Shown here in pieces: positions 56,590-64,000 of a stretch of DNA of 64,000 bases. The first letter of the stretch is position 1, and each line of letters opens with the position of its first letter. The notes under the pieces are model-generated. The model had not been told where the DNA came from. It made no database searches and worked only from the letters and a program-made list of their open reading frames with translations. The stretch is from Phycisphaeraceae bacterium (GTDB taxonomy: Bacteria; Planctomycetota; Phycisphaerae; Phycisphaerales; UBA1924), in contig JAJTGZ010000002.1 in the NCBI GenBank assembly GCA_021299385.1, positions 1 through 64,000 on the forward strand. Direction: 5' to 3'. The translations under genes and the position numbers were made by a program.

Positions 56590-57008
56590 CCCCGGCTACC
56601 CCGATCAGGCACCCCCAGGCTTGCCCATCTTTACACCCCCAACCAACCTTCCCGACCACCCCCCGCGCCGGGTCGCAAAAAATCCTCAAATCCCTCGAAC
56701 CAAAGCCCCTTGGCAACCGAAGATACCTTCGCTAGAGGCCCACGCAAATCCCGACGGCCACACACGAACCCGTCCAAGATTCCCGCGTCAAGGCCCGTGA
56801 TTTCACCCGTCCTGTCAGCCGTATCTGTTGGAAGTTCTGGCCCGGCCACCTTGGGATGGTCCCAGGCAAACCAGGCCAGAGTGTGCCGTGGGCGACGGCC
56901 TGCGGAAAGAAAGCTGGGCGACCGGCGATCCCCGGTGTCGGCTCGGCAAGGCCACTGCCTGGCACTGTTTGGCACAAAGCCAAACACCCACGCCCGGCAG
57001 GCATTGAA
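56590..57008 (+). ncRNA. Gene-poor transcribed-like region with several hairpins
   Basis: No long gene is convincing here. Local stem-loops are visible: GCCGTGGGCGACGGC (near 56884-56898), ACCGGCGATCCCCGGT (near 56920-56936) and TGTTTGGC-ACAAA-GCCAAACA (near 56966-56986). The region lies between MlaE and the mini-ORF/terminator on the same strand, so it is probably 3' UTR or an unannotated structured RNA. I could not match RNase P, tmRNA, SRP RNA or a riboswitch. Low confidence that it is a discrete RNA. Confidence 0.3.
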
Positions 57009-57023
57009 AAGGAGGTGATCCAG
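57009..57023 (+). promoter_or_regulatory. 15-nt extended Shine-Dalgarno (16S 3'-end complement)
   Basis: AAGGAGGTGATCCAG is the exact complement of the last 15 bases of typical bacterial 16S rRNA (CTGGATCACCTCCTT). The core AGGAGG lies 7 nt before GTG 57023. The rest of a 16S gene is absent, so this is not an rRNA end. Confidence 0.6.
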
Positions 57024-57088
57024 TGCAGAACTCTTTCGGATCATGTTTCGCTGCGAAGTACGCAGGAGGGCTTGGCCTGAAGCCCTAA
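57023..57088 (+). CDS. Putative 21-residue small protein behind extended SD
   Basis: GTG 57023 opens a 21-residue reading frame, MQNSFGSCFAAKYAGGLGLK then P, closed by TAA. It follows the perfect SD at ideal spacing, and a strong intrinsic terminator lies 140 bp downstream. The peptide has no recognised family and no membrane helix, with one Cys. It may be a real small protein, a leader peptide, or a mimic of the anti-SD target. The coding claim rests only on SD strength and spacing. Confidence 0.4.
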   Translation: MQNSFGSCFAAKYAGGLGLKP

Positions 57089-57228
57089 AGCTTCAGAGCC
57101 GCTCGACGGAGCTGGCTTGTTCACACCCCGCGTCGGCCACGGGCCGCACAAAGGGAAACTGAACGGCCCAGCCCTGGAAACAGCTGCGGGTTCATCCCCA
57201 CAGCCAATAACAAAGCATGCCTTCATGC

Positions 57229-57260
57229 ACGGCCCGCGCCCCACAGCGCGGGCCGTTTTT
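57229..57260 (+). terminator. Rho-independent terminator
   Basis: ACGGCCCGCG pairs with CGCGGGCCGT (10 bp, 8-nt loop) followed by a T-tract (TTTTT, 57256-57260). It ends a plus-strand transcript that includes MlaE and/or the mini-ORF. Between it and fliA (57261-57430) I see nothing coding. Confidence 0.9.
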
Positions 57261-57430
57261 ATACGTATCGCACAAGTGTCTTATTCAGAACTCCTCCCCC
57301 GGAACGTTCTGGCGGGGAGGGGCTGGGGTGGGGTTATCCACTTCGGACGCACGAAATTCAGCGGCGATCCATCTCACATCCCCGCGCAGCAAACAACACC
57401 CACCTACGCACACTGTCTACAACCCCAACC

Positions 57431-58468
57431 TCAATCCTCCCGATCATCCGGCTCAAGCTCATCCGTCCGGTTCTGCAACTGGCTCTTGAGCCGTGCCAAA
57501 ATCAGGCTGTGCATCTGGCTCACCCGGCTCTCAGAGAGGTCGAGCGTCGAGCCGATCTCCTTCATCGTCATTTCCTCGTAGTAATAGAGGATCACGATCA
57601 ACCGCTCGGCACGCGACAACCCGCGTGTGAGCATCTCCTTGATGTCCCGCCGTTGCGTCTCCAGCAGCGGGTTCTGCTGCGAGTGGTCCTTGAGCACGTC
57701 GATCTCGGTTACTTCCTTGTTCCCGTCGCTGTTGAACGCCTTGCGGTTCAGCGACACCGTCATCACCGCACCCGAGTCCTTGAGGATCTTCTCCAGGTCC
57801 TCACCCGTCGCCCCTAGCGCCTGTGAAACCTCGTCGTCCGTCGGCGAACGCCCGTTGCGCATCTCAAACTTGTCGCGGATGACCGAGACCTTCGCCGTCC
57901 GGTGCCGAACAAGCCGGGGCACCCAGTCCATCGCACGCAACTCGTCGATGATCGCCCCCTTGATGCGCGTGGCGCTGTACGTCTCAAACTTCACACCCTT
58001 GGCCAGGTCAAACGCATCGATCGCGTCCATGAGCCCAAACTGACCGGCGGACATCAGGTCCCCAACGTCCACCTCATCGGGCAGCCGGGTGTACGTCTTC
58101 TCGGCAATGTACCGCACCAGCGGCAAGTACCGCTCCCAGAAATAGTTCCGTATGTCCGGCCTCTGCGTCTTGGCATACTCCGCCCAGATCTCATTAACCG
58201 GCAACTGGTCAAACTCCACCTTGCTGCAAGCGTTCGCCGCCGTCAGACGCTTGCGCGTCCCACCCTTCATCGCCGGCTTCCCGTTGTTGCTCCCACCCCC
58301 ACCCTTGCCACCGGGCACAACACCCTTGCCAATCGAGGGCTTCACAGGCAGGCCATCCGTCTGCGCAAGAGAACGAACCGCAACAACCCGTGCAGAAGCG
58401 CCCCTACCGGCACCCCCACGCACGGCGGAACTGCGAACACCAACCGCTGAAGCCTTCATCCGAGACAT
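57431..58468 (-). CDS. fliA: RNA polymerase sigma factor FliA (flagellar/WhiG family)
   Basis: 345 aa from ATG 58468, with AAGGAG 7 nt upstream. An N-terminal 90-residue Gly/Ala/Arg/Lys-rich tail is unusual. Region 2 (NEIWAEYAKTQRPDIRNYFW, LPLVRYIAEKTYTRLPDEVD, AGQFGLMDAIDAFDLAKGVK, FETYSATRIKGAIIDELRAM) carries the FliA motif. Regions 3 and 4 follow to LIVILYYYEEMTMKEIGSTL and LSESRVSQMHSLILARLK. The family transcribes late flagellar genes. It is the last gene of the minus-strand flagellar block, downstream of flhA-flhF-flhG and a small membrane gene. Confidence 0.93.
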   Translation of the reverse strand: MSRMKASAVGVRSSAVRGGAGRGASARVVAVRSLAQTDGLPVKPSIGKGVVPGGKGGGGSNNGKPAMKGGTRKRLTAANACSKVEFDQLPVNEIWAEYAKTQRPDIRNYFWERYLPLVRYIAEKTYTRLPDEVDVGDLMSAGQFGLMDAIDAFDLAKGVKFETYSATRIKGAIIDELRAMDWVPRLVRHRTAKVSVIRDKFEMRNGRSPTDDEVSQALGATGEDLEKILKDSGAVMTVSLNRKAFNSDGNKEVTEIDVLKDHSQQNPLLETQRRDIKEMLTRGLSRAERLIVILYYYEEMTMKEIGSTLDLSESRVSQMHSLILARLKSQLQNRTDELEPDDRED

Positions 58469-58811
58469 GGTCGACTCCTTGACCCATCTACACAGCCGGC
58501 AACAACTACCCTGCACAGCCCCGTCGGCCTCCCGGCCTCTAGCACTATGCACGATCCTGTGCCCGCCGCAACCAGAGTGGGCGAATGCCCAGCTCCTGGC
58601 CGCCCGGTGCGCTCAGCACCGAGCTTTGTCGTACACCACCGAGCAAAGGCCCAGAAAAGAGCCCCGCCTGATGGTCCACTTGCCTGTCCGCCCGTCCGTG
58701 GGTTTTCAGACGGATAGAGCGTAACAGCCGAAAAGAAATTTTCAAGTCCTCACACAACTATCAACAAGTCATCCACAATCTACCCACACCGATTGGCACA
58801 GAAACACCCCA
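58469..58811. other. 343-bp spacer upstream of fliA
   Basis: No gene is seen. On the minus strand TTGAAA and TACGCT, 16 nt apart near 58738-58711, are a weak candidate promoter for fliA. The part near 58740-58810 is AT-richer than its surroundings. Confidence 0.3.
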
Positions 58812-59285: not shown

Positions 59286-60251
59286 TCAACCCACACGCCC
59301 ACCAACCAAACGGGCCAAACGATCCCAAAACCCGATCGCCGGGGGAAGGCGGTTGGCATCGCGTACGGCCACCTGCAACACCCCTGCCAAGTGCGTCGCC
59401 AACTGCCCCACTGCCAGGCTCGCCCCCGAGGCCGGCGCACCGAGCACAAACGGGCACCTCGCCCGCACCCCCTGCGGCACCGCAACATCCTGCATCAACG
59501 CCCCGGCCAGGGGCAACTGGACCCCCAAAAACCTTGCCCCCACCGCCGAGACGCGACCGGCCACCTCTGCCGCCTCCTGTGGTGAGAGTGCCTGGTTGAC
59601 CACCAGTTGCGGCGGCGCAAAGTTGGTGCCCATCCGCCGGGCCGATTGGCAGAGCGTTTTGATCAGCGCGTACGCATCGGCAATGCTCGTCGGCTCGGGT
59701 GTTACGACCACCAGCGTCAGGTCCGCGCACAACGCGCTGGCCCGCACCAACTGCCCCATCCCCGCGCCGGTATCCAGCAGCACCACATCCGCCCCGGCCA
59801 CGCTTGCACGCAAGTTGCGCAGCAGGGCCACCTGCTGGTGCTCGGGCAGATCGGGCAATCGCCCCATCCCGACCGCACCGGGTATAAGCCGAAACCCTCC
59901 CGGCGCGGCCATCGCCAGTTCTTCAATCGGGCAGGCCGGGTCGAGGGCGGCATCGAGCCTTGCACGCGGCGAAAGCCCGCACAAAACATCCGCGTTGGCC
60001 AGGCCAAAGTCCATGTCCACCAGCGTCGTCCGCACCGACCGCGCCGCCAAGGCCGCCGCCAGGTTCACCGCCAGCGACGTTTTGCCCACACCACCTTTTC
60101 CCGATGTAATCGTAACGATCCTCGGCCCGACCACCGCCGGCGCGTCAATGGGCCACGCCTGCCGGCGTCCCGCCCCGGCCATCGCGCGCAGACGGGCCGC
60201 CTGGTCATCCAAGGCACCCGCCGTGCCCGGGTTGGTCCGCAGGGCCGTCAT
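59286..60251 (-). CDS. flhG: FlhG/FleN-type MinD-family ATPase
   Basis: 321 aa. A deviant Walker A SGKGGVGKTSLAVNLAAALA, then TLVDMDFGLANADVLCGL, DVVLLDTGAGMGQLV and VTPEPTSIADAYALIKTL. This is the ParA/MinD superfamily member that partners FlhF to set flagellar number and position. The C-terminal membrane-targeting helix of MinD is not evident; instead IGFWDRLARLVGGRVG forms a basic amphipathic end. Its start overlaps flhF by 4 bp. The N-terminal 35 residues are extended and Ala/Arg-rich. Confidence 0.92.
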   Translation of the reverse strand: MTALRTNPGTAGALDDQAARLRAMAGAGRRQAWPIDAPAVVGPRIVTITSGKGGVGKTSLAVNLAAALAARSVRTTLVDMDFGLANADVLCGLSPRARLDAALDPACPIEELAMAAPGGFRLIPGAVGMGRLPDLPEHQQVALLRNLRASVAGADVVLLDTGAGMGQLVRASALCADLTLVVVTPEPTSIADAYALIKTLCQSARRMGTNFAPPQLVVNQALSPQEAAEVAGRVSAVGARFLGVQLPLAGALMQDVAVPQGVRARCPFVLGAPASGASLAVGQLATHLAGVLQVAVRDANRLPPAIGFWDRLARLVGGRVG

Positions 60252-61642
60252 GCCGGCAAAGCCCCCTCCAGCACCAGCCGGGCCATCCGCTCGGCCCGCG
60301 TCGGCTCGATGTCGTCGGGCACTTCCTGTCCGGTGGTTACGTAACTCAGCCGCACGGGCAGCTTCGCCTGCACGCGTGCGGTTACATTGACCAGCAGCCC
60401 GAAGTTCACGGCCTCGTCGAGTTTGGTAAAGATCAAATGGTCCGGCTTGAGCCGTGCGAACCGCTCAGCCGCACGCGTCAGGCTCCCCTGCCCGGCGACG
60501 CTCGACAGCACCAAGTGCGTCTGGTCGGGCTGGGCGGCCTCCAAAAACTCGGCCAGTTCATCAAGCCTTGCCGAGTCCCCAGGGGACCGCCCGGCTGTGT
60601 CGATCAAGATCACGTCGCAGTCGGCCAGCTCCGCGCACGCCGAGCGCAACTCCTCGGGCGTCAGCACCACCTTGAGCGGAACGCCGATGATGTTGGCATA
60701 TGTCCGCAGCTGCTCAACGGCGGCGATGCGGTACGTATCACACGTGATCATCCCGACACGCTTGCCGTGCCTGAGTTTGTGCGCCGCGGCGAGTTTGGCC
60801 AGCGTCGTCGTCTTGCCCACACCCGTCGGCCCGACCAGCGCGAGCGTAAACGGCCTTCCAGAGGCCGGCCTTGGCGGTGGAACGTGCAGATTCGCCGAGG
60901 GAAACAGCCCTTCCAGACGCCGGAGCATCCCCTGCCGCACGGCCTGGGCGTCGTTCAGTTCCGCCGGGGTCAGTTCATCGCGCAACTGCCCGACGATCTG
61001 GTCGGCCAGTTCCCGGCTGACCTCCGCCTCGATCAACCTGAGGTAATGGTCAAGCAGCGCCGAGGGCATCGGTGCCGCACCCGTCGGGGTCGTTTGCAGC
61101 ACCTGCCCGACCATGCGCTTGATCGCCGCGAGTTCGTCGCGGAGCGACTCACCCTCGACCGGCACCAGCCTGGGGCCAGGCTTGTCGAGCACGGCGGCCT
61201 CAAGCGCGATCGCCGCGACTTCTTTGGCCGGGTGGGACTGTGCAGGCACGCTGGGTGCAGCCGGGCCGTTGTTAATGCTGGGTTTGGCGGCGTTGCCAAT
61301 GCTGGCCGCATACGCCCGAGCGAACCCCGACCGGGCTGGGGGTGGTGCAGAGGCGGTGGCTGCCGGCATCGCCTCGACCTGCGCACCGACAGCGTTGCCG
61401 ACAGTGGCGCCGACAGCGGCAAGTTGGGGCTGCGCCTGCGGCCTCCGCCGCGGCGGCATGGTGTTGACCCCAATCGTCGCGGTAACCTCTACCTGCGGTC
61501 TGCCGCCAAGGCCAAAGATCGTGCCGACCTTGTAGACGCGGGTGTGGAGGATCACCGCCTCTTTGCCCAGGTCTTTCTTGACCAGCACGAGCGCATCGGC
61601 CATGCTCGGTGCGCGGTACGTCTTCAATCGCATATCTGCCAT
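60248..61642 (-). CDS. flhF: Flagellar SRP-like GTPase FlhF
   Basis: 464 aa from ATG 61642. MRLKTYRAPSMADALVLVKK is the family opening (B domain). A disordered Ala/Pro-rich section lies at about 85-160. The NG domain has GPTGVGKTTTLAKLAAAHKL, DTYRIAAVEQLRTYANIIGV, VILIDTAGRSPGDSARL and FTKLDEAVNFG. FlhF places the flagellar base and acts before FlhG, whose gene overlaps its end. GAGGG lies about 8 nt before this ATG. A second ATG at 61633 is 3 codons further in. A longer reading upstream adds an Arg-rich tail and is unlikely. Confidence 0.93.
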   Translation of the reverse strand: MADMRLKTYRAPSMADALVLVKKDLGKEAVILHTRVYKVGTIFGLGGRPQVEVTATIGVNTMPPRRRPQAQPQLAAVGATVGNAVGAQVEAMPAATASAPPPARSGFARAYAASIGNAAKPSINNGPAAPSVPAQSHPAKEVAAIALEAAVLDKPGPRLVPVEGESLRDELAAIKRMVGQVLQTTPTGAAPMPSALLDHYLRLIEAEVSRELADQIVGQLRDELTPAELNDAQAVRQGMLRRLEGLFPSANLHVPPPRPASGRPFTLALVGPTGVGKTTTLAKLAAAHKLRHGKRVGMITCDTYRIAAVEQLRTYANIIGVPLKVVLTPEELRSACAELADCDVILIDTAGRSPGDSARLDELAEFLEAAQPDQTHLVLSSVAGQGSLTRAAERFARLKPDHLIFTKLDEAVNFGLLVNVTARVQAKLPVRLSYVTTGQEVPDDIEPTRAERMARLVLEGALPA

Positions 61643-61746
61643 CCATGGCCCTCGCAAACGCCGGCGTCCTGCCCGCGCAAGCATGCATCATCGGCCATCG
61701 GTGCGCGATGCGTGCAGACTTGACGCACCACGCGCAACTCGTGCGC

Positions 61747-63906
61747 TCACGCCGCCGCCTGGGGCGACCGCGCACCCTCACCCGTGCTCAGCGCAGGCAC
61801 CAGCGCGACAGACTCGGCATCCACCCCGGGCACGATCTCGTTGTACCCCAGCACCACCGCCCCAGGCGCACCCTGCTCGATGATCTGCCGGACCACCGCA
61901 CGCACCGTCGGCGAAGCAATCACAATCGGCGTGTGCCCCCCGGCTGTAACCTGCTGCAACCCACGCGTGATCTGGTCGCTGACACGCTGGGCAACCCCCG
62001 CGGGCATCGTCAGGCTCGTCCCCGCAGCCGAGCGGTCGATATACGCGTTGATCTGATCCTCCAGCCCCGGGTCCAGCGTGCAGCAAACAATCCTCGGCCG
62101 GCCGTTCTCCCCCGTCGTCGCGTGCTGCTGGCAAATAGCCCGGCGGAGGGCGTTGCGCACATACTCCGTCAGCACGTCCAGGTCCTTGGTCTTGCCGATC
62201 CAGTCCGCCAGCGTCTCCAGGATCGTCTCGGTGTCGCGGATCGGCACACGCTCGCGCAGCAGGTTTTGCAGCACGCGGTGCAGGTCCGCCGTCCTGACCG
62301 CGCCGGCCATCGCCTCCTCGACGAGTTTCGGGCTTTTGACCTTGAGCTGCCCGACGAGTTCCGAAACCTCCTGCCGGCTGAGCAGGTCCGCCGCGTGGGT
62401 GCGGGCCGTCTCCGTCAGGTGCGTGGCCAGCACCGAGACGGGGTCGACAACGGTGTAGTTGAGCGTCTCGGCCTTGGTCTTGAGCGTTGGCTCGATCCAG
62501 TACGCGTCCAGCCCGAACGCCGGCTCCTTGCCGGGCATCCCCTCGATCGGGCCGGTAGAGATGCCCGAGTCGATCGCCAGCAGTTTGCCCGTGATCGTCG
62601 TGCCGCGGGCAACGACCGCGCCCTTGATCTTGATGCGGTAGTCGTTGGGCTGCAACTGCAGGTTGTCGCGGATGCGGATCGGGGGCATGATGATCCCCAG
62701 TTCCCCGGCCAGTTGCCTGCGGATTGCAGAGATTCGGTCGAGCAGGTCTCCGCCACGTGTGGTGTCGACCAGAGTAACTAGCCCGAAGCCGATTTCCAGT
62801 TCCATCGTGTCGAGCTTCAGGAATGTTTCCGGCGCGGGCGCCTCGGCCTTGACCTGCTGGGCGTGCTGCGTCTGCGCCACCACCGCCGCCGCACGCTGCG
62901 TTTTGCCACGCACGAGCATCACACCCAGCAGCATCAGCACCGCGGCCGTTGCAAGCAGGGGCATCGTCGGCAACGGCGTCAACGCCAGCAGCATCAGGAA
63001 GCCGGCGGTAACAAACAGCCCCGTCGGCTGGCTGATGATCTGGATGCTCATCGCCTCGCCCAGTTCACCCTTGGCACCCGAGCGCGTAACGATCAACGCC
63101 GAGGCTATCGCAACAACGAACGCCGGGATCTGGCTCGTCAGCCCGTCGCCGATGGTGAGTTTGGTAAAAACCTCGACGCTCTGCACAACCGGCCACCCGC
63201 GGTCGAGCACCCCGATAGCGATCCCACCGATGACGTTGATCAGCGTGATGATGATCCCGGCGATCGCGTCCCCACGCACAAACTTGGATGCACCGTCCAT
63301 CGCACCGAAGAAGTCCGCCTCTTGCGCGATACGCTCGCGCCGACGCTTGGCCTCCACATCGTTGATCGCACCCGCGTTCAAGTCCGCGTCGATAGCCATC
63401 TGCTTGCCGGGCATCGCGTCGAGGGTGAAACGTGCGGCCACCTCGCTAATACGCGTGGCACCCTTGGTGATCACGATAAACTGCACGATCACCAGGATCA
63501 GGAAGATGATCACGCCGACGATGATCGACTCGCCGGCGACAAAGTGCCCGAACGCCGAGATCACATGCCCGGCGACGGCCTCGGCCTCCTCCGGGCTGCT
63601 CGCGTCGGCTGTCAGAATCAGCCGTGTGCTCGCGACGTTGAGCACCAGACGGAAGAGCGTCGTCGCCAACAGCAGCGACGGGAAGACCGAAAAATCCAGC
63701 GGCTCACGCATGTACATCGTCGTCATCAAAATCACCACCGACAACGCGATGTTCAAGCAGATCAAGAGGTCCAGCATGAACGGCGGCAGCGGCACCACCA
63801 CCACCATCATCAGCAGCACAAAGCCCACAGGCAAAATCAGCCCGCGGTACTTCTGGATCATGTTGACCCACGCAGGTGCACTCGGATTCAAAGGCAGGTC
63901 AGACAT
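61747..63906 (-). CDS. flhA: Flagellar export apparatus protein FlhA
   Basis: 719 aa. Eight N-terminal membrane helices (from GLILPVGFVLLMMVVVVPLP), the conserved loop MPGKQMAIDADLNAGAINDV and EAKRRRERIAQEADFFGAMD, then a large cytoplasmic domain. EIGFGLVTLVDTTRGGDLLD, IRDNLQLQPNDYRIKIKG and DPVSVLATHLTE are typical FlhA motifs. FlhA is the export gate platform of the flagellar type III system. ATG 63906 is preferred; the GTG at 63912 lies upstream of a weaker start. flhB or other export genes would lie beyond the window edge. It heads the minus-strand flagellar block. Confidence 0.95.
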   Translation of the reverse strand: MSDLPLNPSAPAWVNMIQKYRGLILPVGFVLLMMVVVVPLPPFMLDLLICLNIALSVVILMTTMYMREPLDFSVFPSLLLATTLFRLVLNVASTRLILTADASSPEEAEAVAGHVISAFGHFVAGESIIVGVIIFLILVIVQFIVITKGATRISEVAARFTLDAMPGKQMAIDADLNAGAINDVEAKRRRERIAQEADFFGAMDGASKFVRGDAIAGIIITLINVIGGIAIGVLDRGWPVVQSVEVFTKLTIGDGLTSQIPAFVVAIASALIVTRSGAKGELGEAMSIQIISQPTGLFVTAGFLMLLALTPLPTMPLLATAAVLMLLGVMLVRGKTQRAAAVVAQTQHAQQVKAEAPAPETFLKLDTMELEIGFGLVTLVDTTRGGDLLDRISAIRRQLAGELGIIMPPIRIRDNLQLQPNDYRIKIKGAVVARGTTITGKLLAIDSGISTGPIEGMPGKEPAFGLDAYWIEPTLKTKAETLNYTVVDPVSVLATHLTETARTHAADLLSRQEVSELVGQLKVKSPKLVEEAMAGAVRTADLHRVLQNLLRERVPIRDTETILETLADWIGKTKDLDVLTEYVRNALRRAICQQHATTGENGRPRIVCCTLDPGLEDQINAYIDRSAAGTSLTMPAGVAQRVSDQITRGLQQVTAGGHTPIVIASPTVRAVVRQIIEQGAPGAVVLGYNEIVPGVDAESVALVPALSTGEGARSPQAAA

Positions 63907-64000
63907 ATTCACTCGTCCCGAACCAGATCTAGAAACTCAACGCCGCCCTCGGCAGATGCACGTCTTAAACATCACTCACGCCGCACGACCCTGCAACCGG

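Follow-up and report, generated by a model that had tools for sequence, protein, structure and literature searches.

Described systems closest to the locus

The nearest named family is CC2171 (Rfam RF01867), which is alphaproteobacterial, is typed as an sRNA by Rfam and is tabulated, without a function, in the Rfam 15 publication (PMC11701678). It is also listed, again without a function, as an identified sRNA in a survey of Mesorhizobium huakuii (PMC5596092), and no functional paper on CC2171 was found in the literature searched. Ribosome profiling in Caulobacter revealed translation of two RNAs earlier described as non-coding, which are unnamed in the relevant passages of that report (PMC4117421). 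The locus analysed here, within a 64,000-nt stretch of DNA from a Phycisphaeraceae bacterium (the window), shares with CC2171 the AAAGGAGGUGAUCCAGUG core, a GUG start, a short ORF with its stop and a 3′ terminator, and alphaproteobacterial copies also have a Shine-Dalgarno (SD)-like element before the stop. In contrast, CC2171 starts about 25 nt before the SD, as judged from promoter-like sites, and is devoid of the long 5′ domain of the window RNA.

Leader peptide or uORF attenuators similarly combine a strong SD, a tiny ORF, stems and a terminator, but the window RNA is a single standalone locus with a convergent neighbour and no conserved downstream gene. In recoding sites of the prfB type, a sequence resembling an SD directly precedes the stop codon and pairs while this stop is in the A site. 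Most RNAs of the window type also carry an SD-like element close before the stop; however, the spacing is about 6 nt in the former and about 9 nt here, and here a mini-ORF is present with no continuing frame required. tmRNA, too, is a housekeeping-type structured RNA whose reading frame is very short. As an identity for the locus it was rejected: there is no RF00023 match at this position, and the real tmRNA lies on another contig (C36, 165 bits). tmRNA was found in all seven genomes compared (this one and six relatives), and the Rfam 6S model gave no match either in these seven genomes or at the RNA locus. Finally, extended SD sites of Staphylococcus aureus pair past the canonical SD towards the start codon (PMC13009471). 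Those belong to ordinary mRNAs with shorter complements, whereas here the whole tail is matched within a conserved structured RNA.

A complement of the entire 16S tail reaches into the start codon

The window carries AAGGAGGTGATCCAG at positions 57009-57023 (+ strand, as for all features of the RNA given below). The 16S gene of the same genome (G000:C7, L283:31-1514; Rfam SSU, 1452.9 bits) ends in ...GCGGCTGGATCACCTCCTTTCTAAGG (also given as ...CTGGATCACCTCCTTTCT). An earlier note on this DNA had described a perfect 15-nt complement of the 16S 3′ end and named comparison with the organism's own 16S as a check; this comparison bears the description out, with a match of 15 nt, or 16 nt when A57008 is counted (AAAGGAGGTGATCCAG). 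The element, hereafter SD1 (57008-57023), is a perfect 16-nt complement of the 16S 3′ tail, and the predicted energy of the duplex is -29.4 kcal/mol. Its complementarity covers the entire single-stranded 16S tail, reaching the edge of helix 45. The match had also been placed 7 nt before a GTG, which holds for the GGAGG core, but the full match enters the G of the GTG (57023-57025), this G being the last base of SD1. Because the match contains the start codon's G, full 15-16-nt pairing and decoding of the GTG in the P site would be mutually exclusive and cannot coexist. Pairing and initiation would have to follow one another or be partial, and a two-step process, docking and then initiation, is therefore likely. 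Recruiting or holding ribosomes appears the best reading of such a long SD.

In a whole-genome search, the 13-mer AAGGAGGTGATCC had only two sites, SD1 and, on the opposite strand, the 16S 3′ end; the chance expectation for a given 15-mer is about 0.005 in 2.63 Mb (both strands, uniform bases, calculated by hand). The earlier view that the locus is not an rRNA remnant stands: the 16S gene lies on another contig, Rfam gave no SSU or other rRNA family match at the locus and no SSU match in the window, and the sequence flanking the 15-mer differs from the own 16S. Single-sequence folding gave an unpaired probability of 0.37 for SD1 against 0.33 elsewhere, which is not clearly more open.

Extent and parts of the RNA gene

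The mini-ORF block is the middle part of a longer structured RNA gene, which probably begins about 180 nt upstream. The whole gene would occupy about 56830-57261, with the 3′ end taken from the terminator and the 5′ end from conserved -10-like sites that were spotted by eye in relatives (GATAAT/GATACT, some 180-190 nt ahead of the SD). A promoter scan of the window gave no consensus promoter and nothing above chance.

In the 5′ part, hairpin P2 (56886-56905; CCGTGGGC-GACG-GCCTGCGG) shows a GACG loop and a covarying stem across the class. It is followed by stem P3 (56913-56947), formed by GCTGGGC/GCTCGGC around CCGG/CCGG, which covaries with a same-genus copy (L003, GTCAGGC/GCTTGAC). A small hairpin, GGGCTT/AAGCCC (57068-57085), lies just before the stop, and on direct reading both same-genus copies allow a pre-stop hairpin of other sequence. 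Hairpin P5 (57097-57117) reads AGCC-GCTC-GACG-GAGC-(T)-GGCT; its 13-mer CGCTCGACGGAGC does not vary within the genus, and the GACG loop occurs widely. The gene ends with a GC-rich intrinsic terminator (57229-57261). The strong terminator with T-tract noticed earlier is present, but its hairpin (57229-57256, then TTTTTAT) has 11 bp and not 10.

Two genomes of the same genus (G001 and G003) retain the block despite low overall identity, including the SD, the GTG, CGGATC, CGCTCGACGGAGC, the upstream GCC..GGGYGACGGCC hairpin and the following stem. Alignment of 22 copies yielded a consensus with a pair of 5′ stems, the SD, a long-range stem opening inside the ORF and closing beyond it, and a GACG-loop hairpin.

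The structure covaries across the class

From these 22 copies, all carrying the exact SD and not including the window, we built a covariance model, R1. It matched 97 of the 112 family genomes with a completeness of 90% or more, and 102 of 297 class genomes, nearly always in single copy, and copies without the exact SD may be missed with such seeding. On the window, R1 aligned to 56883-57037 (G000:C54) with 46.4 bits and an E value of 1.6e-11; the longer linker and ORF of this genus make for a poor fit in the 3′ half. In the 102 aligned hits, 94.9% of paired cells formed standard pairs, two-sided compensatory changes were seen in 32 of 35 base pairs, and 516 cells were changed on both sides as opposed to 130 in shuffles, while sliding the partners by one column brought pairing below 50%; this alignment was fitted to the model and its pair counts lean towards it, yet the contrast with the slid and shuffled controls is large. 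The named loci of the SD-GTG R1 type belong to Phycisphaerales, and R1 scores on other Planctomycetota loci were 55.6 (L287), 52.6 (L078) and 30.7 bits (L286). Rfam 15 contained no Phycisphaerae RNA of this kind: searches at gathering thresholds (window) and at permissive ones (locus and relatives) returned sub-threshold CC2171 and chance matches. Comparison between genomes thus shows a structured RNA gene, hitherto undescribed, that nearly all genomes of the family have in one copy and that occurs across the class; a covarying RNA of this distribution that is absent from Rfam is of interest in itself.

Conservation in relatives had been named as a check in the earlier note, and the SD-GTG block was indeed found: pattern AAGGAGGTGATCCAGTGCARA (up to 2 mismatches) had one site per genome in 48 of 150 family genomes, and read backwards it had no match in the same 150. 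Across 100 R1 hits, GGTG was invariant, as was the T two positions further on, and the position between them was A or the wobble-compatible G in 99. As judged from these hits, conservation of SD1 appears to extend several bases past the canonical SD, and is partly ascertained because the seeds were exact-SD copies only. GTG is the start codon in most hits, with ATG or TTG in distant families. In the latter the start is one base closer (GATCCGTG) and the complement shorter at its 3′ end, with the ORF kept.

The reading frame is kept and the peptide appears barely constrained

The mini-ORF (57023-57088) starts at the GTG and comprises 21 codons and a TAA (57086-57088), encoding MQNSFGSCFAAKYAGGLGLKP; the 21-residue frame proposed earlier is thereby confirmed. 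In the two same-genus copies it has 16 (G001) and 18 codons (G003). The start-codon frame stopped after 6-21 codons (mode 12) in all 98 scored class hits, as compared with stops at 5-26 codons in 12 and 9 of the 98 for the other two frames. Similarly, in a pattern-selected set dominated by Alphaproteobacteria (ORFs of 9-26 codons), 103 of 107 had the in-frame stop, against 38 and 24 for the other frames. Since early in-frame stops are conserved, translation seems selected.

The peptide itself behaved differently, with pN/pS values of 0.73 in the class and 0.81 in the alphaproteobacteria-dominated set. Cys codons were TGT in 98 cases and TGC in 11, in RNAs that are GC-rich. These figures point to a barely constrained peptide, the constraint being at the RNA rather than the peptide level. 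The Phycisphaerae peptides have a loose common end, (D)C(T/M/I)(K/R)GLR, in which K-G-L-R would largely follow from the AAGGGGCTGCGC stem/SD2 sequence (see below); between groups, the peptides are unrelated. Ribosome loading, rather than the encoded peptide, thus seems to be what the RNA is maintained for. Two order-level relatives (L223 in G376 and L235 in G053) carry very Cys-rich mini-ORFs of 32-33 codons, VIEDCTTCPSDCCTRTPYHCSDCCGQKQSGLR and VIELCTPRPGGKCCCGDSCDGNCCCGRKRIGLR.

A second SD-like element lies before the stop

Upstream of the stop, the window RNA has a further anti-SD-complementary element, AGGAGGG (SD2, 57064-57070; about -10.8 kcal/mol). It is situated 15 nt before the stop, with the small hairpin between, whereas in most relatives the distance is about 9 nt. 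We scanned 8-nt windows against the 16S tail, with a cut-off of -4 kcal/mol or lower and window ends 7-10 nt before the stop. Such an element was detected in 76-78% of the ORFs in the class and in 65-75% of those in the alphaproteobacteria-dominated set, as compared with 16-18% of codon-shuffled ORFs and 12-16% of the ends of long ORFs at the same loci. Examples are AAGGGG-CTGCGCNNN-TAA in Phycisphaerae, GAGGTG-9 nt-TAG in Myxococcota, Acidobacteria and Krumholzibacteriia, and GGAGGG-9 nt-TAA in one Rhodobacteraceae copy. Because ORF lengths vary (9-26 codons), the position of SD2 appears to be anchored to the stop and not to the start, as judged by comparison of relatives. When the stop occupies the A site, SD2 would mostly be 4-8 nt from the P-site codon, close to the 6-7 nt between SD1 and the start. 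SD2 frequently falls on the 5′ strand of a stem, and its G-richness could therefore be structural in origin.

Genomic context

Upstream of the RNA, on the same strand, the window carries an MlaE permease gene, also found upstream in G001. An ABC-3 metal-type permease precedes the RNA in G003 and in about half of 60 distinct family loci, and other neighbours vary. Downstream lies a convergent sigma-factor gene, which, together with the RNA's own terminator, supports a self-contained or trans-acting RNA. Since it has this terminator and no conserved downstream gene, the RNA is best seen as standalone. The ORFs on the strand opposite to the RNA form an apparent flagellar cluster, with a sigma-70 family gene (FliA-type by context) beside MinD-like, FlhF-like and FlhA-like ORFs (57431-58552 and 59286-63912, - strand).

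Proposed mode of action and alternative explanations

We consider that the locus encodes a standalone structured mini-mRNA that captures ribosomes and acts through ribosome occupancy, not through its peptide, a reading to which sequence comparison leads us to give roughly even credence. The folded 5′ domain would present SD1, complementary to the whole single-stranded 16S tail; SD1 would capture a 30S subunit with extreme affinity and the GTG would be placed in the P site. The ribosome would make a very short peptide and arrive at the stop, where SD2 could re-pair with the 16S tail, and it might then be held at termination or kept near enough to restart. The output would be the ribosome-occupied as opposed to the free or folded state of the RNA, which could serve as a trap, a parking place or a sensor of availability. 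Comparison establishes the gene, its fold, SD1, the mini-ORF and, in most relatives, the position of SD2; we infer that the RNA is expressed in this organism, captures ribosomes, retains them at termination and has such a physiological role. If ribosomes are indeed captured and held, bacteria would possess an RNA dedicated to buffering free ribosomes or reporting on them, and its conserved use of the whole 16S tail would be a natural experiment on useful SD length.

The locus might instead be a small mRNA for a functional micropeptide, in which the long SD is a very strong ribosome-binding site and the fold protects the message. The conserved frame, the loose common end of the Phycisphaerae peptides, the Cys-rich ORFs of the two order-level copies and the ordinary 28-120 codon genes driven by the same 17-mer in viral contigs all fit such an mRNA. 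We nevertheless hold it to be unlikely, if conceivable, in view of the pN/pS of 0.73-0.81, the TGT-biased Cys codons, a K-G-L-R that would come largely from the AAGGGGCTGCGC stem/SD2 and the lack of relationship between the peptides of different groups. Another explanation makes pairing itself the function: an antisense RNA to the 16S 3′ tail, involved in 30S maturation, storage or hibernation, with incidental translation. It would account for a complement spanning the whole tail and the start codon's G, beyond what initiation can use, and for GTG outnumbering ATG as start. It leaves unexplained, however, the 98 of 98 early in-frame stops and the stop-anchored SD2, and distant class members shorten the complement, shift the start one base closer and keep the ORF; we thus find it rather unlikely.

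A cis-acting leader or attenuator of the leader-peptide type, controlling a neighbouring gene, is suggested by the SD, short ORF, stems and terminator, and some genera do have a same-strand gene shortly downstream. In the window, the convergent sigma-factor gene contradicts such a role; moreover, flanking genes differ between genomes and no alternative anti-terminator was seen, leaving this explanation a small probability. The 15-mer is identical to part of a standard 16S reverse primer site, as would be expected of a degenerate rRNA fragment, but the adjacent sequence does not belong to 16S, whose gene lies on contig C7, and about a hundred genomes keep the element together with its covarying structure. 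Such a fragment, or a chance match, is refuted by conservation, covariation and the uniqueness of the 13-mer outside the 16S gene, and its probability is practically nil.

Relation to CC2171 and wider distribution

CC2171 scored 18.7 bits on the window against a gathering threshold of 75 bits, and at threshold it was found in none of 298 class genomes, the best Phycisphaerae copy reaching 48.5 bits. The window nonetheless has the CC2171 layout, with the AAAGGAGGUGAUCCAGUG core aligned at the same place, the GUG and the short ORF. Conversely, R1 gave 11.7-19.5 bits on CC2171 and other alphaproteobacterial loci, a good part of it from the SD, and in the majority of alphaproteobacterial copies it recognised hardly anything besides the SD; most Rhizobiales and Caulobacterales copies scanned are Rfam CC2171 (79-92 bits). 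The shared design of the two RNAs is clear on comparison, and either homology or convergence may underlie it. The RNA has a CC2171-like layout but falls outside CC2171 at the Rfam threshold, and a categorically new mechanism is conceivable. The layout of the Phycisphaerae RNA gives the uncharacterised CC2171 family a testable function.

We then scanned GTDB contigs for AAGGAGGTGATCCAGTG. Among the matches listed, most were from Alphaproteobacteria, several from Phycisphaerales, and a few from Krumholzibacteriia, Myxococcota, Acidobacteria and others, and an ORF of 9-26 codons followed nearly all of them. It is tentatively conceivable, and we hold it with clearly less than even confidence, that there exists a cross-phylum class of housekeeping-like 'two-SD' RNAs that would hold ribosomes in a cycle of loading, termination and reloading and would thereby buffer or sense the free ones. 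Such a class would comprise loci of Phycisphaerae and other Planctomycetota, Alphaproteobacteria and a few Krumholzibacteriia, Myxococcota and Acidobacteria, and its sole common design would be a mini-ORF with a full 16S-tail complement where it begins and a second SD where it stops.

Six loci, from Krumholzibacteriia, Acidobacteria and Myxococcota and including an unnamed one (L077, L089, L091, L101, L114 and L148), have the SD-GTG block in a different fold, with GAGGTGG before the stop; R1 is weak on some of them (13.5-26 bits). In Rhodobacteraceae, the RNA directly follows a Vut_1 (YhhQ-like) gene at L056, L058, L062 and other loci, and at several loci it stands just before an RF-1-domain gene (ArfB-like, by Pfam). 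In Bosea and Microvirga, RNase R or RF3 genes adjoin the RNA, as seen by eye. A link of these alphaproteobacterial neighbours to ribosome rescue is possible but lineage-bound, since each occurs in no more than one or two lineages, and our reading does not draw on them.

Some exact 15-mers from other parts of the phylum are chance matches within genes (L288, L291, L299 and L301). The same 17-mer is also present in viral contigs, where it is mostly followed by ordinary phage genes (28-120 codons), and the long SD alone is therefore not diagnostic. One 43-aa phage protein (VPGKHYGRGSGYMNGSSTTRS...) was repeatedly found behind the full 17-nt SD-GTG block in these contigs (L306, L311, L312, L313, L320 and L323).
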